Origin: an uncultured Pelagibacteraceae bacterium
GTDB lineage: Bacteria; Pseudomonadota; Alphaproteobacteria; Pelagibacterales; Pelagibacteraceae
NCBI GenBank assembly: GCA_902622795.1
Contig: CACNRD010000007.1
Location: 1 to 58,266 of the forward strand
Reading direction: 5' to 3'
DNA length: 58,266 bases
The translations under genes were made by a program, and so were the position numbers. The notes beneath the pieces are model-generated. The model was not told where the DNA came from, searched no databases, and saw nothing but the letters and a program-made list of their open reading frames with translations. This document shows positions 19,845 to 46,137 of the stretch, in pieces; positions within the stretch are counted from its first letter, which is position 1; each line of letters begins with the position of its first letter.

Positions 19845-20188
19845 TTTCTCAATTGTTTCTTATTTTTGAGATATAGAAAATAAGCAACAATCTCATATAC
19901 ATAATTAAAAATTGTAAAAATTATTGGAAGTTTAAAAAATTTATATAAAAATCTATATTTAGGTATTTTCTGCCAAACATACAAAAAAGCTTCAGCTCCC
20001 TCTAAAACTTTATCGTTATCTCTCACATGTAAACGTCTCAAAAGCTGCTTATTATTTTTGTTTGTCTCTTTTTCTGCCATTTCATTGTTAGTGATATCTA
20101 TCCAATCTATTTCCTCTACTTTTTCTTTTTTATATAAATTTATTTCAGATCTACAAATTTTACAGGAATTGTTGAAATATACTTTCAT
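19841..20188 (-). CDS. DCC-family (DUF393) thiol-disulfide oxidoreductase-like protein
   Basis: The 115-residue protein opens with YFNNSCKICRSEI, placing a CxxC pair (Cys9, Cys12) at the end of the first strand as in the thioredoxin-like DCC family. The later GAEAFLYVWQKIPKYRFLYKF segment is also typical of DUF393. A C-terminal hydrophobic helix (IFNYVYEIVAYFLYL) may associate with the membrane. Redox activity is inferred from the motif; partners are unknown. The ATG at 20188 is chosen because the family begins directly with this strand; an in-frame ATG at 20224 adds 12 residues with no family likeness. It diverges from tldD. Confidence 0.85.
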   Translation of the reverse strand: MKVYFNNSCKICRSEINLYKKEKVEEIDWIDITNNEMAEKETNKNNKQLLRRLHVRDNDKVLEGAEAFLYVWQKIPKYRFLYKFFKLPIIFTIFNYVYEIVAYFLYLKNKKQLRN

Positions 20189-20273
20189 ATTAAAATAATT
20201 ATCCTTTAACAGGCTTTTGTACATGTGTAAAAAGAGCAGTTGAAAAGAGAATATAAACCTTTATGTAATTCTT

Positions 20274-21686
20274 ATGAGTAATTTCTTTGATAAATCAGAT
20301 TTGGCAAGAAAAGATGCTGAAAATATAGTCTCAGATACTTTAAAAAATTGTGACGATGGAGAGTTGTATTTAGAGGACTCAAAGTCAGAGTCAATAATCT
20401 TAGATGACAATAAAATTAAGAGCTCGAATTATAGTTCAGACTTAGGTTTTGGATTTAGGGCTGTCTCAGAGGAAGTAGTTGCTTACTCCTACTCAAATGA
20501 AATATCAAAGGAATCTTTGAAAAATTCAGCAGAAAATCTTCAGTCAACACTTAAATCAATTAAAGGTACTTATAAGAGTGAGATACCAAAATCTAATAAA
20601 AAATTTTATGATGATATAAATCCCATAGAACAAAAAACTTTAAATTCAAAGCTGGAAGTTTTAAATAAAGTTAACGATTATTTAAGAAAAAAAGATGGAG
20701 CTGTAAAACAGGTTACAGCAAATTTTTTAGGTGAACATAAATCAATTGAAATAATCAGATCAGGTGGTGAGGCAATTACGGACATTAGACCATTAATTAG
20801 ATTTAATGTTTCAGTAATGCTTGAAAAAAATGGCAGAAAAGAAACAGGTGTGTATGGCATTGGAGGCAGACAGTCTTATGATGATTATCTAAAAAATGAT
20901 AATTGGAAAAGTGTGTGTGAAGAGGCTTTTAGAATTGCTTCAGTAAATTTAGAAAGTAAACCCGCACCAGCTGGTGAAATGAAAGTTGTTTTAGGACCAG
21001 GTTGGCCAGCAATACTTATTCATGAAGCTATAGGACATGGTTTAGAGGGTGATTTTAATAGAAAAAAAACTTCAGCATTTCATAACCTTATGGGGCAAAA
21101 AGTTGCAAGTGAAGGGGTCACAATTGTTGATGATGGCACGATAGATAATAGAAGAGGTAGTCTTACTATAGATGACGAAGGTACACCAACTGAAAAAACT
21201 GTTTTAATTGAAAACGGAATTTTGAAAAATTTTATGCAAGACCGACTGAATGCTCGTTTAATGAAAACAAGATCAACTGGCTCAGGAAGAAGAGAAAACT
21301 ACAGACACGTAGTTCTACCGAGAATGAGAAATACAATGATGTTAAGTGGAAAGCAAACTCAAGATGAGATGATCAAATCTGTTGATAAAGGTATTTTTGC
21401 AGTTAGCTTTGGGGGTGGACAAGTAGATATTACCTCAGGAAAATTTGTTTTTAATTGTACAGAGGCCTATGAAATTTTTAATGGAAAAATTGGTTCACCA
21501 ATAAAGGGAGCAACATTAATAGGAGATGGCCCATCAATTTTAAAGGAAGTTTCAATGGTTGGTAATGACATGAAAATGGATCCAGGAATTGGAACTTGTG
21601 GAAAAGCAGGTCAAGGAGTTCCAGTCGGTGTAGCGCAGCCATCCATACTAATTGATAAGATGACAGTTGGTGGAACAAAGCTTTAA
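20274..21686 (+). CDS. tldD: TldD metalloprotease subunit
   Basis: The 470-residue partner of TldE/PmbA carries the catalytic HEAIGHGLEGD, a HExxxH zinc motif at 250-255. GPGWPAILIHEAIGHG, NGILKNFMQDRLNARL, TGSGRRENYRHVVLPRMRN and the late KGATLIGDGPSIL block are standard. The TldD-TldE heterodimer degrades unfolded peptides and helps mature microcin B17-like or other peptides and CcdA antitoxin in Escherichia coli. In an organism without such targets a general peptidase role is likely. The next gene, pmbA, starts after a 3-base gap, so the complex is made from one transcript. Confidence 0.95.
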   Translation: MSNFFDKSDLARKDAENIVSDTLKNCDDGELYLEDSKSESIILDDNKIKSSNYSSDLGFGFRAVSEEVVAYSYSNEISKESLKNSAENLQSTLKSIKGTYKSEIPKSNKKFYDDINPIEQKTLNSKLEVLNKVNDYLRKKDGAVKQVTANFLGEHKSIEIIRSGGEAITDIRPLIRFNVSVMLEKNGRKETGVYGIGGRQSYDDYLKNDNWKSVCEEAFRIASVNLESKPAPAGEMKVVLGPGWPAILIHEAIGHGLEGDFNRKKTSAFHNLMGQKVASEGVTIVDDGTIDNRRGSLTIDDEGTPTEKTVLIENGILKNFMQDRLNARLMKTRSTGSGRRENYRHVVLPRMRNTMMLSGKQTQDEMIKSVDKGIFAVSFGGGQVDITSGKFVFNCTEAYEIFNGKIGSPIKGATLIGDGPSILKEVSMVGNDMKMDPGIGTCGKAGQGVPVGVAQPSILIDKMTVGGTKL

Positions 21687-21689
21687 GTA

Positions 21690-23006
21690 ATGATTAAAGA
21701 TCACAAGTTTTTAAATGCTAAAGCTTCTTTTTGTTTAGATATAGCAAAAAAACTTGGAGCAACTGATGCTAGTGTAACGATAGGACATGGAGTCTCAGAA
21801 ACTGTTAACTTTAGAAACAAAAAATTAGATGAGTCTAATAGATCTGACGATTTAGCATTTAGTATTGATATTTACATAGGTAAAAAAAAATCTTCAATTT
21901 CTTCCTCAAACTTATTAGATGATAATTTAAAAAATCTTATTGAAAAATGTTTTGAAACTACAAAAAATACACCAGAGGATGAATTTAATTCGTTGCCAGA
22001 TAAAAATCTATTAGCAAAAAACATAAAAAATTTAAATTTATTTGATGAAACTCACGTAAAAAATGAAAAAAAAATTAGTTATTTAAAAGAGCTAGAAGAT
22101 ACAGCGTCTGAAGATAAAAAAATAATTAATACAGAGTCCAGTTTTACTGAAAATAAATCAAATTATCTTTTAGCAAATAGTGATGGCTTTTGTGGGAGTT
22201 TTAAAAAATCATCATTTTCAGCTTCATGTGTAACAGTTGCTAAAGATGAGAAAAGTATGGAGAGAGACTATGAATATTCCAGTAAAAGATTTTTTAGTGA
22301 AATAAAAGATCCAAAAGTTCTTGGTAAATTAGCAAGTCATCAAACAATAAGAAAACTTGGTCCAGATAAAATAGGAAGCGAAAAATTAAGTATAATTTTT
22401 GATAAAAGAATCGCTAAAAATATTTTAAATGCTTTTGCAGGTGCGATATCATCTTCAGCTATTGCAAGAGGAACATCATTCCTTAAGGACAAAGTGAATA
22501 AACAGGTATTTTCTGACCGAATAAATATTGTTGATAAGCCAGATATTATCAAAGGTTTAGGGTCCCGAAATTTTGATGCAGAGGGAGTAAAATCTGAAAC
22601 CTTAAATCTGGTGGAACAGGGCATTTTAAAAAATTATCTTTTAGACACTTATAATGGCAAAAAATTAAACTTAAAATCTAATGGAAGAGCAGGAGGAACT
22701 ACAAATTTATACTTAGAAAATGGAAAAGTAACTTTTGAGGAATTGTTAAAGAGTAATTCAAAAAGTATTTATGTTACTGAAACTATAGGTCATGGAAGTA
22801 ACTTAGTAACTGGAGACTACTCAGTAGGTGCAACAGGTTTTTTGGTTGAAGATGGTGAATTTAAATATCCTGTTAGTGAAATAACAATTGCAGGAAATTT
22901 TAAGGATATGTTTAAAAATATATTTTTAGCAAATGATTTAGATTTTGAATATTCTACGAACTCACCAACCATGATGATTGAAGGCATGACAGTTGCTGGT
23001 AAATGA
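21690..23006 (+). CDS. pmbA: TldE/PmbA metalloprotease partner subunit
   Basis: The 438-residue protein has the U62/TldE fold but no HExxxH motif, as expected for the non-catalytic half of the complex. Recognisable segments are the AFAGAISSSAIARGTSFL stretch, GSRNFDAEGVKSETLNLVE, LDTYNGKKLNLKSNGRA and VTETIGHGSNLVTGDYSVGA. It lies 3 bases after tldD and its stop TGA overlaps the ATG of the following flavoprotein gene (ATGA). The pairing with tldD is the common arrangement and supports both calls. Confidence 0.94.
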   Translation: MIKDHKFLNAKASFCLDIAKKLGATDASVTIGHGVSETVNFRNKKLDESNRSDDLAFSIDIYIGKKKSSISSSNLLDDNLKNLIEKCFETTKNTPEDEFNSLPDKNLLAKNIKNLNLFDETHVKNEKKISYLKELEDTASEDKKIINTESSFTENKSNYLLANSDGFCGSFKKSSFSASCVTVAKDEKSMERDYEYSSKRFFSEIKDPKVLGKLASHQTIRKLGPDKIGSEKLSIIFDKRIAKNILNAFAGAISSSAIARGTSFLKDKVNKQVFSDRINIVDKPDIIKGLGSRNFDAEGVKSETLNLVEQGILKNYLLDTYNGKKLNLKSNGRAGGTTNLYLENGKVTFEELLKSNSKSIYVTETIGHGSNLVTGDYSVGATGFLVEDGEFKYPVSEITIAGNFKDMFKNIFLANDLDFEYSTNSPTMMIEGMTVAGK

Positions 23007-23974
23007 GAAATTTTTGTGTAATTGGCTCAGGAATTTCTGGAGCGACTATCGCTAATCTTCTAAGCAAAAAACACTCTGTAGATTTGTATGATAAGGCAAG
23101 AGGACCTGGTGGCAGATCTTCATTCAAAAGAATAGATGAAAAGAGAGGATTTGACCATGGGGCTCAATATTTTTCTCCAAAAAGTGTGGAGTTTAAGAAG
23201 TTTACAAAAATGCTTATAGAGAAAAAAATACTAAAACTTTGGGGTGGAAATCATAAATTTTTAAGTGACAAAAAAAAAGAAAACAAAAAGCACATCAAGA
23301 TTATTGGCACAAAAGGAAATAGCGATATTAGCAAATATCTATTAAAGGATATTAAGTGTAATTTTCAGACTGAGCTTAAAAAAATAAGTTTTTCAAATAA
23401 AAAATGGAATTTAACATTTAGCGATGGAATGATTAAGACTTACGAAAATTTAATTTTAACTTGTCCATTTCCTCAATTAAAAAAATTATCTAAAAAATAT
23501 ATTCAAAATTCTTTCATCAGAGAAAAAATTAAGATGGATGCTAATATCACTGTTTTAATAGAAATAAAAAAAACTAATTTAAATTTAAGTAGTTTTTTAT
23601 TTAATGATAAAATTTTAGGTTGGGCTGGTTATGAAAATAGCAAGAAAAGATTTAAGAGTAAAACTGATCTTTGGACTTTACAAAGTACTTTTAATTGGGC
23701 AAATAAAAAAATAAAACAAAATAAAGTAAATAAAAAAATTAATTCCAAAATTTTGATCAATAAATTTTTTCAATTATCAGGAATAAAGAGAACAAAAATA
23801 CTTTTTTCATTAAATCATGGATGGATGTATTCTTCAAATTCAAACCCTTTAAAATTAAAAAGTTATTGGAATTCTAAATTAAATCTAGGTGTATGTGCAG
23901 ATTGGTTTAATGGACCAAGATTTGAGTCAGGATGGATAAGTGCAAATGATCTATATAAGAAAATAAATAGGTAA
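23003..23974 (+). CDS. FAD/NAD(P)-dependent amine-oxidase-like oxidoreductase (renalase-type, COG3380-like)
   Basis: The 323-residue flavoprotein has an N-terminal Rossmann dinucleotide motif VIGSGISGATIANLL, the acidic ribose-binding end YDKARGPGGRSSF, and DHGAQYF. These are typical of renalase and COG3380 oxidoreductases. C-terminal GVCADWFNGPRFESGWISANDL closes the FAD site. Substrate unknown; bacterial renalase-like enzymes oxidise off-pathway isomers of NAD(P)H, which is one option. Very lysine-rich in its middle third, like other long proteins here. It is translationally coupled to pmbA by an ATGA overlap and converges on the DUF6134-like gene with one base between the stops. Confidence 0.85.
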   Translation: MRNFCVIGSGISGATIANLLSKKHSVDLYDKARGPGGRSSFKRIDEKRGFDHGAQYFSPKSVEFKKFTKMLIEKKILKLWGGNHKFLSDKKKENKKHIKIIGTKGNSDISKYLLKDIKCNFQTELKKISFSNKKWNLTFSDGMIKTYENLILTCPFPQLKKLSKKYIQNSFIREKIKMDANITVLIEIKKTNLNLSSFLFNDKILGWAGYENSKKRFKSKTDLWTLQSTFNWANKKIKQNKVNKKINSKILINKFFQLSGIKRTKILFSLNHGWMYSSNSNPLKLKSYWNSKLNLGVCADWFNGPRFESGWISANDLYKKINR

Positions 23975-23975
23975 A

Positions 23976-24656
23976 TTACTCGTAATTTTTTAATCTATAT
24001 TCCCAATTTCCCATTCTTTGATAAGTAACTTTTACTATTAAAGAAGTTTTTTTATCCAACCAAATATCAAAATTTAATCTTTTATCATCTGGAAGAGTCA
24101 TATTTTTGGAGGTTAATTTGAAATGATCAGTCTCATATTCTTTACCATAAATTATAATTTTTTCTTTTCCAACGAAAGTAACTATCTGTTCTTTTATACT
24201 ACCTGATATTGGGCTTATTTGGCTACTAGCTTGCAATATTTTATGACTCCACCAGTTTCCAATAGCATTTTCAAGTGGAGCCTCACCAGAGAAAGAGGAG
24301 CCCACAATATCAAATTTTTTGGTTTTTTTATTTAAGGTTAAGTTTACAAATTTTTCTTTTTTATTCTGTAGGGTTTTTGAGTTAAAAGAAATTAATTGAT
24401 CTTTTAAATATTTTTCTTCTCCAATACCCTCTACTTCGAAAACTTTTGCTCCCAAAAGTTTTACCACAAATTTGAACTGGTTAGTTACCAGAGTAATATT
24501 GTTTTTTTGTGAAAAAAAGTAATAATTATAACCAATCAATTCATTATTTCTTAAAATTTCCATCTCAATTTTTTTATAGTTACTGTAATGACCAACATGA
24601 GCATATGAGGTAAAACAAATAAAAATAAATATGATGCTGAGACTGATCTTTTTCAT
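23976..24656 (-). CDS. Secreted periplasmic protein, DUF6134-like
   Basis: The 226-residue protein starts with a signal peptide (MKKISLSIIFIFICFTSYAH, cleavage probably near SYA-H). The body is mostly beta strands: YYFFSQKNNITLVTNQFKFVV, FNIWLD-type repeats ending in FDIWLDKKTSLIVKVTY, and GNWEYRL at the end. The layout resembles DUF6134 and other lipid-binding/beta-sandwich envelope proteins, whose function is unknown. An in-frame ATG three codons earlier is possible. It is divergent from the YczE-like gene 40 bases away. Periplasmic location is well supported; the family assignment rests on recollection of the motif pattern only. Confidence 0.7.
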   Translation of the reverse strand: MKKISLSIIFIFICFTSYAHVGHYSNYKKIEMEILRNNELIGYNYYFFSQKNNITLVTNQFKFVVKLLGAKVFEVEGIGEEKYLKDQLISFNSKTLQNKKEKFVNLTLNKKTKKFDIVGSSFSGEAPLENAIGNWWSHKILQASSQISPISGSIKEQIVTFVGKEKIIIYGKEYETDHFKLTSKNMTLPDDKRLNFDIWLDKKTSLIVKVTYQRMGNWEYRLKNYE

Positions 24657-24696
24657 TATAAGCAAGTATTAATAATTTTATAAGTAGCAGTATAAT

Positions 24697-25344
24697 ATGT
24701 TTTTATCTATTAAAAATATCCCCAAAGTATATTGGAGCTCAGATAAAAGCTTTAACTTCAAACCAAAATTTTCAACCTCATTTTTTTTAATTTTTGGTTT
24801 AATTATATTTGGTTTCGGAGAGGGATTATTAATATTGTCAACTACAGGAAATTCTCCCTGGTCTGTACTAGCAGAGGGAATATCAAAAAATTCTAAATTG
24901 TCTATAGGTGCAGCAACATTTCTAGTTAGCGTAAGTGTTCTTTTTTTGTGGATATTTCTTAGACAGAAGCCAGGCTTAGGTACAATTTTTAACATAATTA
25001 TTATTTCTGGAATGATAGATGTTACCTTATATTTTTTTGATCCACCTTCATCAAATTTATTAAAATATCTATTAGCAATATTTTCGGTAATGTTAGTTGG
25101 TTTAGGTAGTGGTATTTATTTAGTAGCAAATCTTGGACCAGGTCCAAGAGATGGATTGATGACTGGTCTAACAAAATTAACAAACTTACCTATTGCTTTA
25201 GTCAGAGCATGTTTAGAAATTTCAGTTGTAATAGCTGGATGGTATCTAGGTGGAACGGTAGGTGTTGGAACTTTGATTTTTGCTTTTGGAATCGGTCCCT
25301 GTGTTGCTTTTGGATTATTTATTGTTAATAAAATTTTTAGTTAG
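24697..25344 (+). CDS. YczE/YitT-like multi-pass membrane protein
   Basis: The 215-residue inner-membrane protein has five to six transmembrane helices. It contains FGFGEGLLILSTTGNSPWSVL, QKPGLGTIFNIIIISGMIDV, GSGIYLVANLGPGPRDGLMTGL and VGVGTLIFAFGIGPCVAFGL. The repeated small-residue loops with LGPGPRDGLM are characteristic of the YczE/YyaS/YitT group, for which transport is assumed but unproven. It begins with a polar N-terminal stretch of about 25 residues. Its stop TAG interleaves with the typA stop (TTAG, 4-base overlap). Confidence 0.85.
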   Translation: MFLSIKNIPKVYWSSDKSFNFKPKFSTSFFLIFGLIIFGFGEGLLILSTTGNSPWSVLAEGISKNSKLSIGAATFLVSVSVLFLWIFLRQKPGLGTIFNIIIISGMIDVTLYFFDPPSSNLLKYLLAIFSVMLVGLGSGIYLVANLGPGPRDGLMTGLTKLTNLPIALVRACLEISVVIAGWYLGGTVGVGTLIFAFGIGPCVAFGLFIVNKIFS

Positions 25345-27167
25345 GCTGCTGCCCCAGATTTTTCACTTCTTTTCCTTTCATGGGGATCAAGAATAGATTT
25401 TCTTAGTCTACAAGATTCAGGAGTAATTTCTAATGCTTCATCTGTATTAAGCATACTAAGTTGCTCCGCAATAGACATTTTTCTCACTGGAGTGAGAACA
25501 ACGTTTTCGTCAGTTCCCTGTGTTCTCATATTTGTTAATTTTTTCCCCTTCATCACATTGATTATCATATCGCCTGGTTTTGGAGACAATCCAACTATCA
25601 TTCCAGGATAAACAGGATCATTATGTGTTACGAACATCTCTCCTCTGGCCTGTAAGTTAAATATAGCAAAAGCTACTGCTTTACCCTGCTCCATTGCAAT
25701 TAAAGCCCCGTTTCTTCTTCCCTCCATTTCACCTTCAAAAGGTCCATAGCTATGAAAAATTCTATTAATAACTCCGTTACCTTTGGTTAGGGTTAAAAAT
25801 CTACTTGTGTAACCCATTAAACCTCTCGTTGGTGCGTGAAAAATAAGTCTTTTTTTATCTTTCCCGGTATCTTTTAAATCTATTAGTTTACCTTTTCTTC
25901 TGTTCATCGAGTCTATTACTTTTGAGGAGTATTCTTCGTCTAAATCCATCGTAATTTCTTCTATAGGTTCAAGTTTTTTTCCACTTTCATCTGTTTGATA
26001 AAGAACTTTAGGAGGACTAACTGTCATTTCAAATCCTTCTCGTCTCATTTGGGTAAGTAAAATTTCTAACATAAGCTCACCTCTACCACTTACAACAAAC
26101 GAGTCGTTACCGTCATTTTCAGCAAAAGTAATTCCAACATTATTTTGAGCTTCCAGAAGAAGTCTATCTCTTATTTGAGTGCTCGTAAGTTTTTTACCTT
26201 CTTTACCCGCAAGAGGAGATGTATTAACTGTTATAGTTATAGACATTGTAGGTGGATCTATTGGTGTTGCTGAAATAGGTTCATTTACATCTAAATCACA
26301 AATAGTGTCTGCAACATTAGCCTTTTCTAATCCAGCTATTACTACAATATCCCCAGCCTCACCAACTTCAATTGGTACTTTTTTAGTTCCCTCATATCTA
26401 AAAATTTTAGTCAGTTTCCCTTCATCTACTTTTTCACCTTTTAAATTAATTGCTTTTATTGACTGATTAGCTTTAGCAGTTCCTTGGGTAATTCTGCCTA
26501 CTAAGCTTCTTCCTAAAAAACTATCTGCATAAAGAAGTGTGGACAACATTGCAAAAGGTTTTTCTTTTTCAAATTTTGCTGGTTTTACATGATTAAGAAT
26601 TAAATCCAGAAGTGGATTTAAATTCTCCCTAGGTCCGTTCACTTCTGTGTCCGCCCATCCAGATCTACCACTTGCATATAAAACTGGAAAATCTAGTTGC
26701 TCCTCATTTGCATCTAGGCTTACAAATAAATCAAATGTTTCATCTAGAACTTCATTAGCTCTTTGATCAGCCTTATCAAGTTTGTTAATTACAACAATTG
26801 GTTTTAGTCCTTGTTTTAAAGCCTTAGATAAAACAAATTTTGTTTGAGGCATCACTCCTTCTGCTGAGTCTATAAGGAGCAGAGCACCATCAGCCATACT
26901 TAAAACTCTTTCAACTTCTGCTGCAAAGTCTCTGTGACCTGGTGTATCAATTATGTTAATTCTCGTATCTTTCCAATTAATTGAAGCAGGTTTAGCTAAA
27001 ATTGTAATTCCTCTTTCTTTTTCTAATTCACCAGAGTCCATTAATCTTTCATCAACCACTTCGTTTTCTCTAAATGATCCACTTTGCTTCATTAAATTAT
27101 CAATCAAAGTAGTTTTGCCATGGTCTACATGAGCAATAATTGTGATGTTTCGAATATCATTTTTCAT
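25341..27167 (-). CDS. typA: Ribosome-associated GTPase TypA/BipA
   Basis: The 608-residue translational GTPase has G1 AHVDHGKT, G2 RGITI, G3 DTPGH, G4 NKLDKAD and the effector-domain order of EF-G without domain IV. The BipA-specific C-terminal domain contains LTPVRKMSIAEQLSMLNTDEALEITP. It binds the ribosome and supports 50S assembly and stress or cold adaptation. An unannotated 38-codon basic ORF lies 87 bases upstream on the same strand and could share its transcript. Confidence 0.97.
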   Translation of the reverse strand: MKNDIRNITIIAHVDHGKTTLIDNLMKQSGSFRENEVVDERLMDSGELEKERGITILAKPASINWKDTRINIIDTPGHRDFAAEVERVLSMADGALLLIDSAEGVMPQTKFVLSKALKQGLKPIVVINKLDKADQRANEVLDETFDLFVSLDANEEQLDFPVLYASGRSGWADTEVNGPRENLNPLLDLILNHVKPAKFEKEKPFAMLSTLLYADSFLGRSLVGRITQGTAKANQSIKAINLKGEKVDEGKLTKIFRYEGTKKVPIEVGEAGDIVVIAGLEKANVADTICDLDVNEPISATPIDPPTMSITITVNTSPLAGKEGKKLTSTQIRDRLLLEAQNNVGITFAENDGNDSFVVSGRGELMLEILLTQMRREGFEMTVSPPKVLYQTDESGKKLEPIEEITMDLDEEYSSKVIDSMNRRKGKLIDLKDTGKDKKRLIFHAPTRGLMGYTSRFLTLTKGNGVINRIFHSYGPFEGEMEGRRNGALIAMEQGKAVAFAIFNLQARGEMFVTHNDPVYPGMIVGLSPKPGDMIINVMKGKKLTNMRTQGTDENVVLTPVRKMSIAEQLSMLNTDEALEITPESCRLRKSILDPHERKRSEKSGAAA

Positions 27168-27254
27168 AAAATGTGGTTCTTATACCTATTTAATTATTTT
27201 TTGAAACTTAAAAAAAACTAATGTTTAGTGAAGATTTTATTAAATTTTTTATGT

Positions 27255-27371
27255 TTAGTTTACTTTTTTTTGCTTTTCTTTTTTAAGTTTTCTTTTTTCT
27301 TTAAAACTTAATTTTGCTTTTTTTTTTATACTAGAGTCTTTAAATGATTTCCCACTATATCGCTTTGACAC
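27255..27371 (-). CDS. Candidate small basic protein (38 aa) upstream of typA
   Basis: A GTG-initiated frame runs 38 codons to TAA. The product begins MSKRYSGKSFKDSSIKKK and continues LSFKEKRKLKKEKQ, a strongly basic, probably helical peptide with about 40% lysine or arginine. The N-terminal part is not homopolymeric, it has a possible AGG site 9-12 bases upstream of the GTG, and it shares orientation with typA. These points favour a real gene over chance. Basic peptides of this type bind ribosomes or RNA, but I recognise no family and the AT-rich DNA makes short lysine-rich frames common. It occupies part of the 397-base space between typA and the next gene. Confidence 0.45.
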   Translation of the reverse strand: MSKRYSGKSFKDSSIKKKAKLSFKEKRKLKKEKQKKVN

Positions 27372-27537
27372 AATATCTACCTATAATAATTTTTAAAATA
27401 AAGATATAATTATCTTTCTTATAAATAATATATTGATTTTTTTTTTCATTTATTAATAATTAGATTATACCGGCTAGATGTATATAAAAGTTTTTGTTAT
27501 AAAATCACGTATTTTATATATATAACTTAATACAATT
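27372..27537. other. AT-rich spacer between the small ORF and the orphan membrane protein
   Basis: Together with the small ORF this is the longest non-coding stretch in the window. Apart from a candidate promoter near 27494-27522 I see only A/T runs and short palindromes (for example AAAGAT-ATAATT-ATCTTT near 27411-27428). No tRNA, hairpin terminator or riboswitch is recognisable. Confidence 0.6.
27494..27522 (+). promoter_or_regulatory. Candidate sigma-70 promoter of the orphan membrane protein
   Basis: TTGTTA (27494-27499) and TATATA (27517-27522) are separated by 17 bases. Transcription would start near 27529, some 36 bases before the ATG at 27565. In such AT-rich DNA chance matches are frequent. 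Confidence 0.35.
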
Positions 27538-27564
27538 TTGATAATTAATACGATTAATTACCTT

Positions 27565-29379
27565 ATGTTATTGAACAAAAAAAAAATTAATAAGTTTGTA
27601 TTATTTTTTATAATTTTTTTTGTTCATCAGTTTATCTTTCAAAAATTTTTTCCAAATAACAAAGAGCTTTTAGGACATGATTATGAATATTTTTTACCAA
27701 ATTTCATGTTTGGTAAAATTTGGTTTGCAAATAATTTATTAAGTATTCCTTGGTTTACTCCAAGTTTTTGTTGCGGAATACCTTTTTACCCTGATCCGCA
27801 GACAATGTTTTATTCTTTACAACAATTATTTTACATTATTTTTGAACCTATATTTGCAACAAAAATATTATTTTTTTATTTTTCTCTGGTTGCTTATGTT
27901 GGAATGTTTTTGCTTTTGAAGAAGAGTTTTCATTTTAATTATTACCTGTCTTTGTTGGGTGCAACATTATTTTTTTTTAACGGTTTTTTTGTTTATAGAA
28001 CGATTATTGGTCATCTTGGGTATGTAAATTTTATATTTGTTCCATTTTATTGTTTTCTTTTAATTTCAAGTATTACTCATTTAAATATTAATCTTAGAAA
28101 AATTTATTTATTCTCATCTGCAATAATATTAAGTTCCTTATTCTATTCAGGCACTGGTTCTTTAATATTTGTAATTATTTTTTGTATAATCACTACATTA
28201 TTAATTTTTAGTATTAAAAATAAAAATTTTTATTTATTATTTGTAGGACTTTCAAAATCTTTGTTTTTAACTTTTTTACTTTCCTTGTCTAAAATAAGTG
28301 CAAGTTTTTTTTTTTTAAAAAATTTTGAACGAATAAATCAGCCTTTGTTTTTTGAAAACACATATGATTATATCTATTCAACATTGAAATCCTTATTTTT
28401 TTTCCCAGACAGTGTACATTTTAATGAAACAGTAACAAATAAAGTCATTTCTTCAATTGGAGTTCATGAACTGGAATTCGGTATAACAATTGTTCCATTA
28501 CTAGCTATTCTTTTGTTGTTTATTAATTTTAAAAAAATAATTAACTTACAGTATATTTATAAATTAATTTTATTATCCATTTTTATTATTATAATACCCC
28601 TATCTTTAAATGCAGGATATTTTTCAATAAATAAAATTTGGAGTTCCATCCCTGTTATTGGAAGCACTTGGGTTCAGATAAGATGGAATATTTTATATAT
28701 TGTTCCATTAATTATTTTTTCATTAGTAATTTTTAACTCAACTTCCTTTATTAAAAAAAATAATTATTTTGTGGTTATTTTAATTTTTGTAGTTGTTATT
28801 CAAAATATTATATACGATAAAAAATATTACCATAATCAATTTTATAATCCTAAAAATATGATACAGTTTTCAAAGGTGATTAATGGTGACGATATTAGTA
28901 ATTATTCAATTAAAAAAATATCAACTTATATCAATAAAAATAACAAAATTATTCGAAAACAAAGAAATGATCATTTTAAAAATGGGGCTTCATCTTACTT
29001 TTGTTATCAACCAATTTTTGGATATGGATTACAAAAATTTCCCAAAAATAATTTAATTTTTGATAAAAAAGTCAATATTTCAAATGATATTTCGTTACTG
29101 ACCGGTGATGTTCAGCTTAACAAGAGTAAAGAGAATTTTAATTTTCTTAATCCTTCCTGTTTTTTATTCCCTAATGAAAATGAATGTAAACCAGGCGATT
29201 TATTCAGAAAAGATCAAGAGAATAATTTATTTAATTTTCTTAAATATAAAAAAATAATTTTTAAGAAAAATATTTTACAAAATATATCTGATTATATTAG
29301 CTTAATAACTTTTTTAATTTTATTATTTTTTTTAATGTTAAATTTGTATTTTTTTATTCACAAAGAAAATATAAAATAA
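27565..29379 (+). CDS. Orphan multi-pass membrane protein, GT-C/YfhO-like
   Basis: This 604-residue protein has about a dozen transmembrane helices, rich in Phe, Ile and Lys. The first extracytoplasmic loop contains LLGHDYEYFLPNF, followed by a CGIPFYPDPQTMFY segment. An acidic residue in the first loop and a 'PDPQ' after the second helix are common in GT-C glycosyltransferases and YfhO-type proteins, which use polyprenyl-phosphate sugars. A C-terminal soluble portion with several cysteines (SSYFCYQPIFGYG, NPSCFLFPNENECKPGD) precedes a last helix. No close family is recognised. The start could be TTG at 27538. It sits alone between typA and groEL, is more AT-rich than its neighbours, and may be acquired DNA for surface polysaccharide modification. 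Confidence 0.72.
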   Translation: MLLNKKKINKFVLFFIIFFVHQFIFQKFFPNNKELLGHDYEYFLPNFMFGKIWFANNLLSIPWFTPSFCCGIPFYPDPQTMFYSLQQLFYIIFEPIFATKILFFYFSLVAYVGMFLLLKKSFHFNYYLSLLGATLFFFNGFFVYRTIIGHLGYVNFIFVPFYCFLLISSITHLNINLRKIYLFSSAIILSSLFYSGTGSLIFVIIFCIITTLLIFSIKNKNFYLLFVGLSKSLFLTFLLSLSKISASFFFLKNFERINQPLFFENTYDYIYSTLKSLFFFPDSVHFNETVTNKVISSIGVHELEFGITIVPLLAILLLFINFKKIINLQYIYKLILLSIFIIIIPLSLNAGYFSINKIWSSIPVIGSTWVQIRWNILYIVPLIIFSLVIFNSTSFIKKNNYFVVILIFVVVIQNIIYDKKYYHNQFYNPKNMIQFSKVINGDDISNYSIKKISTYINKNNKIIRKQRNDHFKNGASSYFCYQPIFGYGLQKFPKNNLIFDKKVNISNDISLLTGDVQLNKSKENFNFLNPSCFLFPNENECKPGDLFRKDQENNLFNFLKYKKIIFKKNILQNISDYISLITFLILLFFLMLNLYFFIHKENIK

Positions 29380-29424
29380 TTTTATTAGTGACTAATATTA
29401 AAAATGTATGGTTTAAGCTAAAAA

Positions 29425-29454
29425 AAACCCCCGAAAGATTAATTCCGAGGGTTT
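29425..29454 (-). terminator. Intrinsic terminator of groESL
   Basis: On the leftward transcript AAACCCTCGG pairs with the CCGGGGGTTT-like strand TTCGGGGGTTT around AATTAATCT. The 3' arm runs into seven Ts (AAAAAAA on the plus strand from 29421). It lies 37 bases after the groEL stop and is the clearest intrinsic terminator in the window. Confidence 0.88.
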
Positions 29455-29490
29455 AAATTTTTCTAGGTAACTAGACAGTTTGGAATGGTT

Positions 29491-31176
<1,686 letters not shown>

Positions 31177-31467
31177 TTACTTACCTGAAATACCCATAAT
31201 GTCTGACTCTTTCATTATGCTGTATTCTTTACCATCAATTTTGACTTCAGTTCCAGACCATTTGCCAAATAAAACTTTGTCACCAACTTTAACATCCATT
31301 GGAATTAACTTTCCATCTTCTGTTTTAGCACCACCACCAATTGCAACCACTTTTCCTTCTTGAGGTTTTTCTTGAGCTGTATCTGGAATGATAATTCCAC
31401 CAGCAGTTTTTTCACTGCTATCTAAAACTTCTATTAGCACTCTGTCGTGTAACGGTTTAAACTTCAT
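31177..31467 (-). CDS. groES: Co-chaperonin GroES (10 kDa)
   Basis: The 96-residue lid of the GroEL chamber starts [12 protein letters not shown]. It contains the mobile loop [20 protein letters not shown] (about 17-36), the [14 protein letters not shown] segment, and ends [13 protein letters not shown]. It is the first gene of the groESL operon, preceded by AAAGGAG and, 35-64 bases upstream of its ATG, a sigma-32-type promoter. No CIRCE inverted repeat (TTAGCACTC-N9-GAGTGCTAA) is present in the leader. Confidence 0.98.
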
Positions 31468-31501
31468 AAATCTCCTTTATAATTCTATATAAATATGGAC
31501 C

Positions 31502-31531
31502 TCATATAGATATTACGCTGTCTATTTCAAG
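31502..31531 (-). promoter_or_regulatory. RpoH (sigma-32)-type promoter of groESL
   Basis: On the minus strand CTTGAAA (31531-31525) and CTATATGA (31509-31502) are separated by 15 bases, matching the alphaproteobacterial heat-shock promoter pattern. Transcription would start near 31495 and give a leader of about 25-30 bases. Confidence 0.72.
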
Positions 31532-31598
31532 ATTAGATATTTGATTAGGCGCTAATAATCCTAGGAAATTGTGGATTTTATGGTTTATACCTTAATTA

Positions 31599-32417
31599 AT
31601 GACTAAAAATTTAGATTCTGTTGGTCTTAGTTCAATTGCCCATAATTATGATCTATTTTATATAGATTTATGGGGAGTTATTCATAATGGCATAAAACTG
31701 TATGAGGGTGCGATTAACACTCTTAAGGAGCTTAAAAAAAAAAATAAAGATTTTGTTCTATTAACTAATGCACCTAGACCAAATGAAACTGTAAAAAATT
31801 TTTTAGAAAAAATGGGTATGGAAGAACAGTTTAGAAATCATGTTTTTACATCGGGAGAAGCTGCACTAAATTATCTAAAAAAATCATATTTATCCAAAAA
31901 ATTTTTTCATATCGGGCCACCAAGAGACTTTGATTTATTTAACCCTTTTAAAAAAAACAAATCAAGTGATCTAGCTGAAAGTGAATATTTATTATGCACT
32001 GGACTATTTGATAATCATAATAAAGATTTAAATCATTATAAAAATATACTTGAGGCGCATACTCATAAAGAGATGATATGCACCAACCCTGATTTGATTG
32101 TCGATCGAGGCAATGTCAGAGAATTATGCGCAGGTTCTGTTGCTATGGTCTTTGAAAAGATGGGTGGAAAGGTAGTATATTTTGGAAAACCATATGCTGA
32201 AGTTTATAATCAATCAATTAATAACTTTAAAAAAAAAACTCTAGCTATAGGAGATAATTTAAATACTGATATTAAAGGTGCTAATTTATTGAATTACGAC
32301 TCTTTGTTAATTTCTAATGGTATTCATAAATTAGAAATTTTTAATAAAGGTATTTTAGAGGTTTCTAAAGAATATGAAACAGTTGTAAACTTTACTCAGT
32401 CGGATCTTAAATGGTAA
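31599..32417 (+). CDS. HAD-superfamily class IIA hydrolase (TIGR01459-type)
   Basis: The 272-residue phosphatase has the HAD motif I as FYIDLWGVIHNG (Asp-x-Trp-Gly, the NagD/CECR5-type class IIA form), motif II in VLLTNAPRP, and motif III/IV around FGKPYAEVYNQ and LAIGDNLNTDIKGANLL. This subfamily is nearly restricted to alphaproteobacteria and usually precedes ribF, as here. The substrate is unknown; FMN or phosphosugar phosphatase activity would fit the neighbour but is inference. Its last 7 bases overlap ribF. Confidence 0.9.
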   Translation: MTKNLDSVGLSSIAHNYDLFYIDLWGVIHNGIKLYEGAINTLKELKKKNKDFVLLTNAPRPNETVKNFLEKMGMEEQFRNHVFTSGEAALNYLKKSYLSKKFFHIGPPRDFDLFNPFKKNKSSDLAESEYLLCTGLFDNHNKDLNHYKNILEAHTHKEMICTNPDLIVDRGNVRELCAGSVAMVFEKMGGKVVYFGKPYAEVYNQSINNFKKKTLAIGDNLNTDIKGANLLNYDSLLISNGIHKLEIFNKGILEVSKEYETVVNFTQSDLKW

Positions 32418-33334
32418 AATTATATAAAAATTTTAATATAAAAAAAAACCATAAAAATTCATTAATTTTAATAGGAAATTTTGATGGTGTTCATTCAGGA
32501 CATCAAAAATTATTTAAATTAGCTAAATTATATAAAAAAAAATATAAGATAAAAATTGGAGTAGTTAACTTTGACCCCATGCCTAAGATGTTTTTTAATA
32601 AATTACTTAAAAATTTTAGGATAACTAGTATTAATCAAAAAATTGAATTGCTAAGTAAACTCAAAGTAGATTTTATTATAACTAAGAAATTTGATAAACA
32701 GTTTTCTAAAACCAAGTCACTTAGTTTCATTAAAGAAATTTTAAATAAAAAATTAAAATCAAAGTTTATATTTGTTAGTAATAATTTTAGATTTGGTAAT
32801 AAAAGAGAAGGAAATGTAAATTTATTAATTGAAAATGAAAAAAAATTCAATTTTAAAGTTGTAAAACCAGAACCATTAATTAAACAACAAAAAATAATTT
32901 CATCTACATTAATTAGGAGTCTTTTAGAAAAAGGATATTTAAAAAAAGCAAATAAGCTTTTAGATAGAAACTGGACTATTGATGGAAAAGTTCAGAAAGG
33001 AAGACAGATTGGTAAAAAAATTGGTTTTCCAACATGCAACATAGATATTAAAGATTATGTTTTAGCTAAACCTGGTGTTTATGCAGTAAGAGTATTAAAA
33101 CCTAATAATTCTAATTATTTAAGAGGAATAGCAAATCTTGGATATAGACCAACATTTAATCAGAAAAAAATCTTATTAGAGGTCCATTTATTTAATTATT
33201 CTGGAAATCTATATAATAAACACTTATCAGTGGAGTTTTTAAAGTTTATTAGAAAAGAAAAAAAATTTAAAAATGTTAATCAATTAAAGTCTCAAATTAA
33301 AAAAGATTTAAATATTGCTAAAAAAACTAGATGA
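32411..33334 (+). CDS. ribF: Bifunctional riboflavin kinase/FMN adenylyltransferase
   Basis: The 307-residue enzyme makes FMN from riboflavin and then FAD. The N-terminal nucleotidyltransferase domain has IGNFDGVHSGHQKLF (about 20-34), FVSNNFRFGNKREGN and SSTLIRSLLEKG. The C-terminal flavokinase domain has GRQIGKKIGFPTCNI and the strand GIANLGYRPTF. Overlaps on both sides (7 bases with the HAD gene, ATGA with ileS) indicate a translationally coupled operon. Confidence 0.96.
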   Translation: MVKLYKNFNIKKNHKNSLILIGNFDGVHSGHQKLFKLAKLYKKKYKIKIGVVNFDPMPKMFFNKLLKNFRITSINQKIELLSKLKVDFIITKKFDKQFSKTKSLSFIKEILNKKLKSKFIFVSNNFRFGNKREGNVNLLIENEKKFNFKVVKPEPLIKQQKIISSTLIRSLLEKGYLKKANKLLDRNWTIDGKVQKGRQIGKKIGFPTCNIDIKDYVLAKPGVYAVRVLKPNNSNYLRGIANLGYRPTFNQKKILLEVHLFNYSGNLYNKHLSVEFLKFIRKEKKFKNVNQLKSQIKKDLNIAKKTR

Positions 33335-36060
33335 GTAATTCTCAAATAAACCTTCCTAAAACAGCTTTTTCAATGAAAGCTAATTTGCCTGTAAGAGAGC
33401 CAGAAATTTTAGAATATTGGCAAAAGATTAATCTTTATAAAGAATTAAGAAATTCAAGCAAAGGAAAAGAAAAATTTGTTCTCCACGATGGTCCTCCATA
33501 TGCAAATGGTAATATACATATGGGAACTGCTCTAAACAAAATTTTAAAAGACATTATCGTAAAATTCCATCAAATGGATGGCAAAGACTCTATTTATGTT
33601 CCTGGTTGGGATTGCCATGGTTTACCGATTGAGTGGAAAATAGAGGAGCAATACAAAAAAAATAAAAAAAATAAGAATGATGTTCCCATAGTAGAGTTTC
33701 GAAAAGAATGCAGATCATTTGCAGAAAAATGGATCGAGGTACATAAAGGTCAATTTAAACGTTTAGGAGTAGTGGGTGATTGGGAAAATTATTATTCAAC
33801 TATGAGTTTTGATGCTGAAGCTCAAATTGTAAGAGAGCTTGGAAAGTTTTTAAAAGAAGGAAGTCTATATAGGGGTTTTAAGCCAGTATTATGGTCTACT
33901 GTTGAAAAGACTGCTTTAGCAGATGCTGAAGTTGAATATCAAGATCATAAGTCAGATACTATTTATACGTCTTTCCCTATCAAAACATCTAACTTAAAAG
34001 ATCTTGTGGGTAGTGAGATAATTATTTGGACTACAACCCCTTGGACAATTCCAGCAAATAAGGCGTTAGCTTACAATGAAGCTCTTGACTACATTCAGTT
34101 GGAATTAAAAGACGATAGTGACTTTAAAAATAGAAAAATTATAGTTGCTGAAGCTTTACTGCAGTCGGTAATTAATGACTGTAAAATAAAAAATTATAAA
34201 AAAATAAAAATATTTAAAGGTAAGGAATTAAAAGAAACTATCTGTAATCACCCTTTTTTAGATCTAGGTTATGATTATGATATCCCAATGTTAGAAGCTA
34301 GGTTTGTAACAACTGAGCAGGGAACCGGCATTGTTCATTGCGCTCCAAGTCATGGACCTGATGATTTTAATTTATGTTTAAATAACGGAATTAAAGCAAT
34401 TGAAACAGTTGATGGAGATGGAAAATATACAAAACATGTAAGCTTATTTGAAGGTATTCATATTTTTAAAGCAAACCCAATAGTAATTGAAAAACTTAAA
34501 GAGCAAAAAAAATTACTATCAAATGGGGAGCTTATGCACTCCTATCCACATTCTTGGAGATCAAAAGCTCCACTAGTTCATAGAGCCACTCCTCAATGGT
34601 TTATATCCATGGAAAGCCATAAGTTGAGAGATAAAGCTTTGAAAGCAATTAATGATACAACTTTTTATCCTAGCAAGGGAAAAGAGAGATTAAAATCAAT
34701 GATAGAGACTAGACCAGATTGGTGTGTATCAAGACAAAGAGTGTGGGGCGTTCCTCTTCCAATTTTTGTTAATAAAAAAACCAAAGAAATCTTAGTAGAT
34801 GATAAAGTTAATGAAAATATTGCATCTATTTACGAAAAAGAGGGTTCAGATTGTTGGTTTTCAGATGATCCTCAAAGATTTTTAGGAAACAAATACAAAG
34901 CTGAGGATTATGAAAAGCTGAGCGATATTGTTGAGGTTTGGTTTGATAGTGGATCCACGCACTCATTTGTTCTTGAAAAAAGAGAAGACTTAAAGTGGCC
35001 AGCATCCATGTATTTAGAAGGATCAGATCAACATAGAGGCTGGTTTCATTCTTCTTTATTAGAGTCGTGTGGCACTAGAGGAAGAGCACCATTTGAAAAT
35101 ATTTTATCCCATGGATTTGTAGTGGACGGCAAAGGATTAAAAATGTCAAAATCTCTAGGAAATGTAATTGCTCCAGAAGATATTTTAAAAAAATATGGTG
35201 CAGATATTTTAAGAATTTGGGTAGCATCATCAAACTATTCGGAGGATCTAAGAATCGACTATTCAATTCTTGACCAACATGCTGAATCTTATAGAAAAAT
35301 AAGAAACACATTCAGGTACTTGCTTGGGAATATTAAAGATAATTTTGAAGAAATAGATTTTAAAAAAGTAGATTTAAATGAATTACCTGAACTGGAACAA
35401 TTTATGTTGCATAAGCTGTATTCTTTGGATGTTAAATTTAAAAAATATTTTAAAAATTACGATTTTCATAATTTATATAAAGAGTTGCTTAATTTTTGTA
35501 CAGTAGATTTATCTGCATTTTATTTCGATATAAGAAAAGACTCATTATATTGCGACCTCATAGACTCAAAAAATAGAAAATCTACTATACTATTGTTAAA
35601 CATTATTTTGAATTCATTATTAAAATGGTTTGCACCAATTTTATCTTTTACAACTGAAGAAATATATAGATTAATATTTAAAGATAGCAAAAGCATTCAT
35701 TTAGAAAAATTTTTAAATTTCCCAAATAATTTTGAGAATGAAAAATTGTATCAAAAATGGTTAGAGCTTATTAAAATTAGAAATATTTGTAATATCAGTA
35801 TTGAAGAAAAACGAGCTAATAAAGAAATTGGATCAAGTTTAGAGGCAGACTTAAATATACATCTAGACAAAAAATTAGAAGAAATTACTAAAAACATAGA
35901 TTTTTCAGAACTATGTATAACATCGAAAGCTCAAATTTCTTTTAAGGAAAAAATTGAAACAAGTGCACAAACTACAAAAGCTAAAGGAAAAAAGTGTACT
36001 TTGTGTTGGAAAATTGTTGAAAATGCTTGTGATAGAACTAATTGCCCCAAAAATAATTGA
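33331..36060 (+). CDS. ileS: Isoleucyl-tRNA synthetase
   Basis: The 909-residue class I aminoacyl-tRNA synthetase has the HIGH-type motif in PYANGNIHMGTALN, the KMSKS motif in GLKMSKSLGN, the editing-domain WTTTPWTIPANKALAY and threonine-rich site. The C-terminal zinc-type cysteines are in KCTLCWKIVENACDRTNCPK. Length is typical of bacterial (type 1) IleS. It charges tRNA-Ile with isoleucine. Start and stop both overlap neighbours by ATGA, between ribF and lspA. Confidence 0.98.
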   Translation: MSNSQINLPKTAFSMKANLPVREPEILEYWQKINLYKELRNSSKGKEKFVLHDGPPYANGNIHMGTALNKILKDIIVKFHQMDGKDSIYVPGWDCHGLPIEWKIEEQYKKNKKNKNDVPIVEFRKECRSFAEKWIEVHKGQFKRLGVVGDWENYYSTMSFDAEAQIVRELGKFLKEGSLYRGFKPVLWSTVEKTALADAEVEYQDHKSDTIYTSFPIKTSNLKDLVGSEIIIWTTTPWTIPANKALAYNEALDYIQLELKDDSDFKNRKIIVAEALLQSVINDCKIKNYKKIKIFKGKELKETICNHPFLDLGYDYDIPMLEARFVTTEQGTGIVHCAPSHGPDDFNLCLNNGIKAIETVDGDGKYTKHVSLFEGIHIFKANPIVIEKLKEQKKLLSNGELMHSYPHSWRSKAPLVHRATPQWFISMESHKLRDKALKAINDTTFYPSKGKERLKSMIETRPDWCVSRQRVWGVPLPIFVNKKTKEILVDDKVNENIASIYEKEGSDCWFSDDPQRFLGNKYKAEDYEKLSDIVEVWFDSGSTHSFVLEKREDLKWPASMYLEGSDQHRGWFHSSLLESCGTRGRAPFENILSHGFVVDGKGLKMSKSLGNVIAPEDILKKYGADILRIWVASSNYSEDLRIDYSILDQHAESYRKIRNTFRYLLGNIKDNFEEIDFKKVDLNELPELEQFMLHKLYSLDVKFKKYFKNYDFHNLYKELLNFCTVDLSAFYFDIRKDSLYCDLIDSKNRKSTILLLNIILNSLLKWFAPILSFTTEEIYRLIFKDSKSIHLEKFLNFPNNFENEKLYQKWLELIKIRNICNISIEEKRANKEIGSSLEADLNIHLDKKLEEITKNIDFSELCITSKAQISFKEKIETSAQTTKAKGKKCTLCWKIVENACDRTNCPKNN

Positions 36061-45735: not shown

Positions 45736-46137
45736 ATGAATATAGATTATACCGTTACAGCATTAATGTTTCCTGCAATACCTTTGTTAATGGGTGTTTA
45801 CAGTAATAGGTTCCATACATTGAGTGCTCTAATTAGAAAAATACATGATGCCCATGTCTTTGAAAAACATACTCCACCTGAATGGAAGGCTCAATTTATA
45901 AATCTTAATAAAAGAATAAGTCTTCTAAAATTTTCAATGGTATTTGCAGCATTTGGGTTTTTATTTAACATGCTAACTGTTTTTGGTCTTTATTTAAGTG
46001 AGATTTTTATCGCCAGAATTATTTTTGGATCATGTTGTTTGTCTATGATTATTTCTATTATTTTTTTTATCGTTGAAATTCAAGTCTCTACTAATGCTTT
46101 GAAACTTCACATGTCAGATATGGATATTTATGAATAA
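45736..46137 (+). CDS. DUF2721 family membrane protein
   Basis: The 133-residue protein has three transmembrane helices. LMFPAIPLLMGVYSNRFHTLSALIRKIHDAH is the DUF2721 mark, of which the RFHTLSALIRKIHDAH part is clearest. A cytoplasmic loop with basic residues (NLNKRISLLKFS) follows. The function is unknown; the family is common in proteobacteria. The ATG at 45736 is chosen over a TTG at 45727. It is monocistronic, diverging from ubiA and converging on the oxidoreductase gene. Confidence 0.85.
   Translation: MNIDYTVTALMFPAIPLLMGVYSNRFHTLSALIRKIHDAHVFEKHTPPEWKAQFINLNKRISLLKFSMVFAAFGFLFNMLTVFGLYLSEIFIARIIFGSCCLSMIISIIFFIVEIQVSTNALKLHMSDMDIYE

Follow-up and report, generated by a model that had tools for sequence, protein, structure and literature searches.

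bTHX is a small lineage-specific ribosomal protein, and it does not stand alone in this respect. The small 30S protein bS22 is found in the ribosomes of Borrelia, Mycobacterium smegmatis and Flavobacterium johnsoniae; in Borrelia it is 61% lysine and arginine, sits in a pocket of the 16S rRNA and, like bL38, remained unannotated until the ribosome structure (PMC10618245). A similar limitation to lineages has been described for the small ribosomal proteins bL37 (mycobacteria) and bL38 (Flavobacterium, Borrelia) (PMC10618245).

Short genes of SAR11 bacteria have also drawn attention: work on SAR11 intergenic regions reported at least three short ORFs of unknown function in HIMB5, and misannotated protein-coding regions have been reported in Ca. 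P. ubique (PMC6429828 / PMC2704228). The gene described here resembles those ORFs in being a short SAR11 ORF, and may be among them in the supplementary lists of these papers, whose main texts mention neither typA nor groEL (yajQ is likewise absent from that of PMC6429828, the one in which it was sought). A literature search of indexed text for the string MSKRYSGKSFK returned no match; earlier notice, in the supplementary lists, is possible.

The gene lies in a window of 58,266 nucleotides from an uncultured Pelagibacteraceae bacterium. Its product shares with bS22, as outlined in the source cited above, a tiny size, a strongly basic composition, a helical structure (predicted for the SAR11 protein) and a patchy distribution over lineages, and with bL37 and bL38 the restriction to certain lineages. 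It differs from bS22 in being less basic (about 45% Lys+Arg versus 61% in Borrelia bS22) and in that its most conserved part is a non-helical N-terminal arm, and from all three proteins in that it has no sequence match in the PDB. In outline only, the SAR11 protein may work like bS22, bL37 and bL38.

Results

The minus-strand ORF 27371..27255 encodes a 38-residue product, MSKRYSGKSFKDSSIKKKAKLSFKEKRKLKKEKQKKVN, with 15 lysines, 2 arginines and three acidic residues (Asp/Glu). A preliminary description had reported a basic 38-codon ORF with a GTG start on the same strand as typA and 87 bases upstream of it, and the locus is as it stated, with the spacer at 27168-27254 (Table 1). The neighbouring product of 27167..25341 was identified as TypA by Pfam (BipA_C, E 4.7e-39; GTP_EFTU, E 2.1e-57), and an Rfam search at gathering thresholds found no RNA element in positions 20000-34000. 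In the interval from groEL to the small gene, the opposite strand encodes a hydrophobic protein of 613 aa that matches no Pfam family (27538-29379); this interval may be an insertion hot spot, since different extra genes occupy it in several relatives.

Table 1 Features of the small gene and its flanks in the window.
Feature	Coordinates	Strand	Remarks
Small protein gene	27255..27371	(-)	38 codons + stop, GTG start; ORF call, homologues, pN/pS 0.19
Near-invariant motif M[S/T]KRYSGKSxKD, codons 1-12	27336..27371	(-)	Alignments; predicted extended
Predicted basic alpha-helical tail, codons 23-37	27261..27305	(-)	Model; length variable between genera
Possible ribosome-binding site AGGTAG	27378..27383	(-)	7-12 bases before GTG; read from sequence
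87-base spacer, small gene stop to typA start	27168..27254	(-)	
typA/bipA, neighbour only	25341..27167	(-)	Pfam; next gene downstream in 67/181 copies

Using the 38-aa sequence as query against 101 genomes (61 of the same genus, that of the window included, and 40 others of the order), matches at E up to 1 were obtained in 48 genomes, every one in the genus, and in none of the 40 same-order genomes outside it. Three weak matches inside long frames (G010, G018, G029) were discounted, and intact homologues without internal stops were present in 45 of the 61 same-genus genomes at E 3.6e-10 or better. When 297 genomes of the order were searched with the profile A1, built from an alignment that excluded one 62-aa homologue (L012), 208 matched with E no higher than 0.1; the matches listed, minus those of G153 and G261, belong to five genera of one family, Pelagibacteraceae. 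The G153 match (another family, f2) was dropped for the stops inside it, and that of G261 for lying within a long DnaK-like frame. The small gene is not universal even within its order.

Within the family, 52 of 60 genomes (59 at ≥95% completeness plus the window's own) matched, among them all 11 single-contig ones, while the eight without a match comprised six of the genus, one g8 genome and the sole g9 genome. Among the genomes listed, 13 of the same genus at ≥90% completeness had no match to profile A1: in six of them typA was likewise not found, and in three (G140, G029, G228) the contig breaks off at typA or just ahead of it, that of G140 beginning in what appear to be the last codons of the small gene. 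No copy lies within 420 bases before typA in G173, G182, G222 and G138, reflecting possibly a true absence or a copy in unassembled DNA; in G182 (96% complete) none was found at the typA site or elsewhere.

Outside the family, no convincing relative was found among 289 genomes of the class: 18 matched at E up to 0.1, three of which are family members, and the other 15 matches, all inspected, were pieces of unrelated ORFs (one of them, we presume, DnaK-like) or interrupted frames. Secondary matches in G311, G315 and G304 (C15) were unrelated sequence and one in G231 was a 12-residue piece within another gene; further weak secondary matches came from G304 (C17), G108 and G249. A DNA-pattern scan of the named genome collection gave at least 119 matching stretches, and 79 of the 80 records listed are titled Pelagibacter, Pelagibacteraceae or Pelagibacterales, the other being 'Alpha proteobacterium SCGC AAA280-B11'. 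The motif pattern had no match in viral contigs, and a phage or viral origin was rejected on this result and on the weakness of the lone PHROG match (E 0.31, 1 of 18 members), which was taken as chance.

The same judgement was passed on a Pfam match to RecA_C (E 0.026, 1 of 18 members). Profile and single-sequence searches of PDB chains gave no match at E up to 10, no NCBIfam family was matched, and no sequence homology to a known ribosomal protein was found in PDB, NCBIfam or Pfam. The gene represents a small protein family absent from the libraries searched (Pfam, NCBIfam, PHROG, PDB).

For comparison of the copies, sequences fitting the motif expression were pooled and exact duplicates removed, leaving 181; many had been found with a DNA pattern requiring the motif, and the conservation of codons 1-12 is thus partly built in. 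The expression dropped the g6 copies (MTKRY; L119, L124, L126), a frameshifted copy in G321 (L108) and the contig-cut L118. In copies of at least 31 codons (175, of which 164 distinct), the ORF frame had a pN of 0.12 and a pS of 0.63, giving a pN/pS of 0.19; the two remaining forward frames had ratios of 1.3 and 2.0, and those of the reverse strand 1.7, 0.43 and 2.7. Pairs with pS <0.35 likewise gave 0.19. The ratio was 0.26 over codons 13-31 and 0.08 over codons 2-12, the latter being partly ascertainment because the copies were gathered by motif. Serine codons swap between TCN and AGY across copies, and an initiating ATG is shared by 180 of the 181, the window's GTG being the lone exception.

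Lack of a conserved frame and frequent stops or indels, which the preliminary description had named as grounds for abandoning the gene, were looked for and did not occur; the broken copies seen were a second, decayed one in G132 and the frameshift in G321. The sequence comparisons it had proposed came out in favour of a real small basic protein gene, with purifying selection on the alignments and conservation in SAR11 genomes (45/61 in the genus, five genera, 52/60 in the family). On these alignments, the ORF is almost certainly a stand-alone protein-coding gene under purifying selection. The G321 copy (C23 8917-9024) loses its frame just past the start codon, possibly through a sequencing error in an A run.

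The N-terminal arm is kept in divergent genera, with threonine at position 2 in three g6 copies. Proteins are usually 36-38 residues long (28-44 among complete copies, plus one of 62), and Lys+Arg averages 45% over 130 distinct proteins. In the AlphaFold2 model (20 rows) the arm is extended, with a mean pLDDT of 66 for residues 1-10, and residues 23-37 form a helix (mean pLDDT 94 over residues 21-30 and 85 from 31 on); as pTM was 0.37, only the local shape of the model is meaningful. The protein is therefore small, highly basic and, by prediction, helical, as are small lineage-specific ribosomal proteins.

The neighbours of the 181 copies, taken as the next ORF of at least 60 aa, are diverse. 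Downstream comes typA in 67, SRAP in 24 and EVE in 12, with the contig ending first in 6; upstream stand GroEL (45), a FabI-like reductase (20), an FAA hydrolase (19), TsaD (17), a 149-aa protein (9) and YajQ (DUF520; 6). TypA, TsaD, EVE, reductase, SRAP, FAA hydrolase and DUF520 were identified by Pfam, while the sequences named GroEL and DEAD-box helicase are ones that we take to be such. There is no ribosomal protein gene among the identified neighbours, a set beside which many small neighbour clusters stand. The preliminary description had suggested a ribosome-associated factor from the nearness of typA; that argument is not supported, since typA comes next in 67 of 181 copies and the gene is also seen at several unrelated sites. 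The link to typA is incidental: the gene follows tsaD, fabI, yajQ and others elsewhere.

Two sequence signals were seen near these genes. A promoter-like TATAAGA (27178-27184) lies a few bases before the typA start and is kept also where the small gene is absent from the site; it is present in 11 of 12 loci displayed (window, L032, L040, L048, L049, L053, L295-L299), the twelfth, L301, being anchored on another gene. Its retention suggests a typA promoter with a very short leader or none. Between groEL and the small gene, a hairpin with a T run (GGCCATC...GATGGCC or close) occurs in L002-L004, L017, L270, L271 and L278; it probably terminates groEL, in which case the small gene would have a promoter of its own at those loci.

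Comparison of occupied and empty sites was clearest between tsaD and EVE. In eight genomes the tsaD stop overlaps the EVE start, as it does by eye in G000 and G101, and in three genomes exactly the 117-base gene stands between the tsaD stop and the EVE start; the EVE gene was not found there in G055, G012 and G034, and G033 and G045 have no row in this comparison. The groEL-typA spacer measures 95-98 bases (G054, G044, G027, G039), 133 (G015), 264 (G031) or 1468 (G004) without a copy, and with one 272-293 in five genomes (G045, G060, G012, G003, G052) and 649-1037, further sequence included, in four others; the values of 264 and 1468 indicate that this spacer varies for other reasons too. The remaining loci of the 30 gave no spacer, because either the groEL end, sought within 1500 bases, or the typA start was not found.

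Mapped on a tree of TypA from 30 genomes, the sites group by clade and require 2 changes over the 25 genomes counted, a count that left out four genomes without a found copy and G027 (site unread), merged the groEL-typA and groEL-helicase-typA arrangements, and labelled G024 from coordinates only; branch support is by SH-aLRT only, with 95 reached by 5 of 27 inner branches. In G132 the copy at the 149-aa site is intact and the one at the groEL-typA site decayed (L286, C1 about 45824-45932). In G277 the 3' half of the gene is partially duplicated, in inverted orientation, directly upstream of an intact gene (C1 242424-242633; L276/L285), and G007 holds two intact copies, each on its own contig, preceded by groEL and followed by a convergent helicase gene. 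These relics and duplicates suggest a unit kept by selection wherever it is sited, which argues against a typA leader.

Discussion

The best overall explanation of these data, to which we give an even chance, is that the gene encodes a small RNA-binding protein, particular to this lineage and unrecognised so far, whose most likely association is with the ribosome. Of its parts, binding to RNA is probable, while association with the ribosome is a tentative proposal that falls just short of even. Composition, size, predicted shape and family-wide conservation, and not typA, make a ribosome or RNA role the likeliest guess. The small basic protein would bind structured RNA much as bS22 and other small lineage-specific ribosomal proteins do: its conserved N-terminal arm would enter a specific pocket and its basic helix would pack against the phosphate backbone; the likeliest target would be the SAR11 ribosome or an assembling subunit. 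Its action does not pass through typA: the gene stands as its own unit at different chromosomal sites and is no typA leader.

Because an ORF of at least 38 aa is present in 22% of simulated spacers (n = 2000, first-order Markov, six frames, each spacer 370 bases and 83% A+T), ORF length alone proves nothing, and a chance ORF in A+T-rich spacer DNA had to be considered; the status of the small gene comes from its conservation, far beyond chance, and with a pN/pS of 0.19, a frame kept over five genera and the same motif at unrelated sites, the probability of a chance ORF is practically negligible. It is also very improbable that the ORF controls typA as a regulatory leader peptide (uORF), since a constant position upstream of that gene was not observed (67/181): the two genes do share a strand, mostly 85-88 bases apart in the window's clade, but of the 175 copies whose downstream gene can be seen 108 have another gene next, copies at unrelated sites keep the amino-acid sequence, and typA keeps its promoter-like TATAAGA before the start codon with or without the small gene.

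Two further alternatives accept a functional protein. A basic composition would suit the binding of DNA or polyphosphate just as well, and a Lys-rich predicted helix with about 45% Lys+Arg, encoded at locations independent of any single neighbour, would suit a small DNA-binding, nucleoid-associated or charge-neutralising protein in place of an RNA or ribosome factor; we nonetheless think this rather unlikely, as the near-invariant N-terminal 12 residues suggest a specific partner over general charge neutralisation and no known nucleoid family was matched in Pfam, NCBIfam or PHROG. The near-invariance of so short an arm could mark a docking motif, by which the product would join one particular protein (a chaperone, RNase, helicase or translation GTPase) as its accessory subunit or its regulator, and groEL (45/181) and typA (67/181) are frequent neighbours. 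Yet none is constant, and no theme obviously unites the tsaD, fabI, FAA-hydrolase/SRAP and yajQ sites, so that we regard such a partner role as unlikely. A narrower form of the ribosomal reading remains doubtful in our view: that the product is a previously unrecognised stoichiometric protein of the ribosome, specific to SAR11, and that its gene moves around the chromosome as a bare ORF-sized cassette set down between existing stop and start codons, the older copies decaying once a new one is in place.

With their streamlined genomes, SAR11 bacteria serve as models of minimal free-living life, and in such genomes a family-wide gene without a family model deserves explaining. Given its near-invariant 12-residue motif, a protein of ~37 residues must have some specific role. 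The clean ORF-sized difference between empty and occupied sites provides a natural system for studying the movement of small genes where no mobile element is visible and, if the protein is ribosomal, SAR11 translation would depart from the textbook set.
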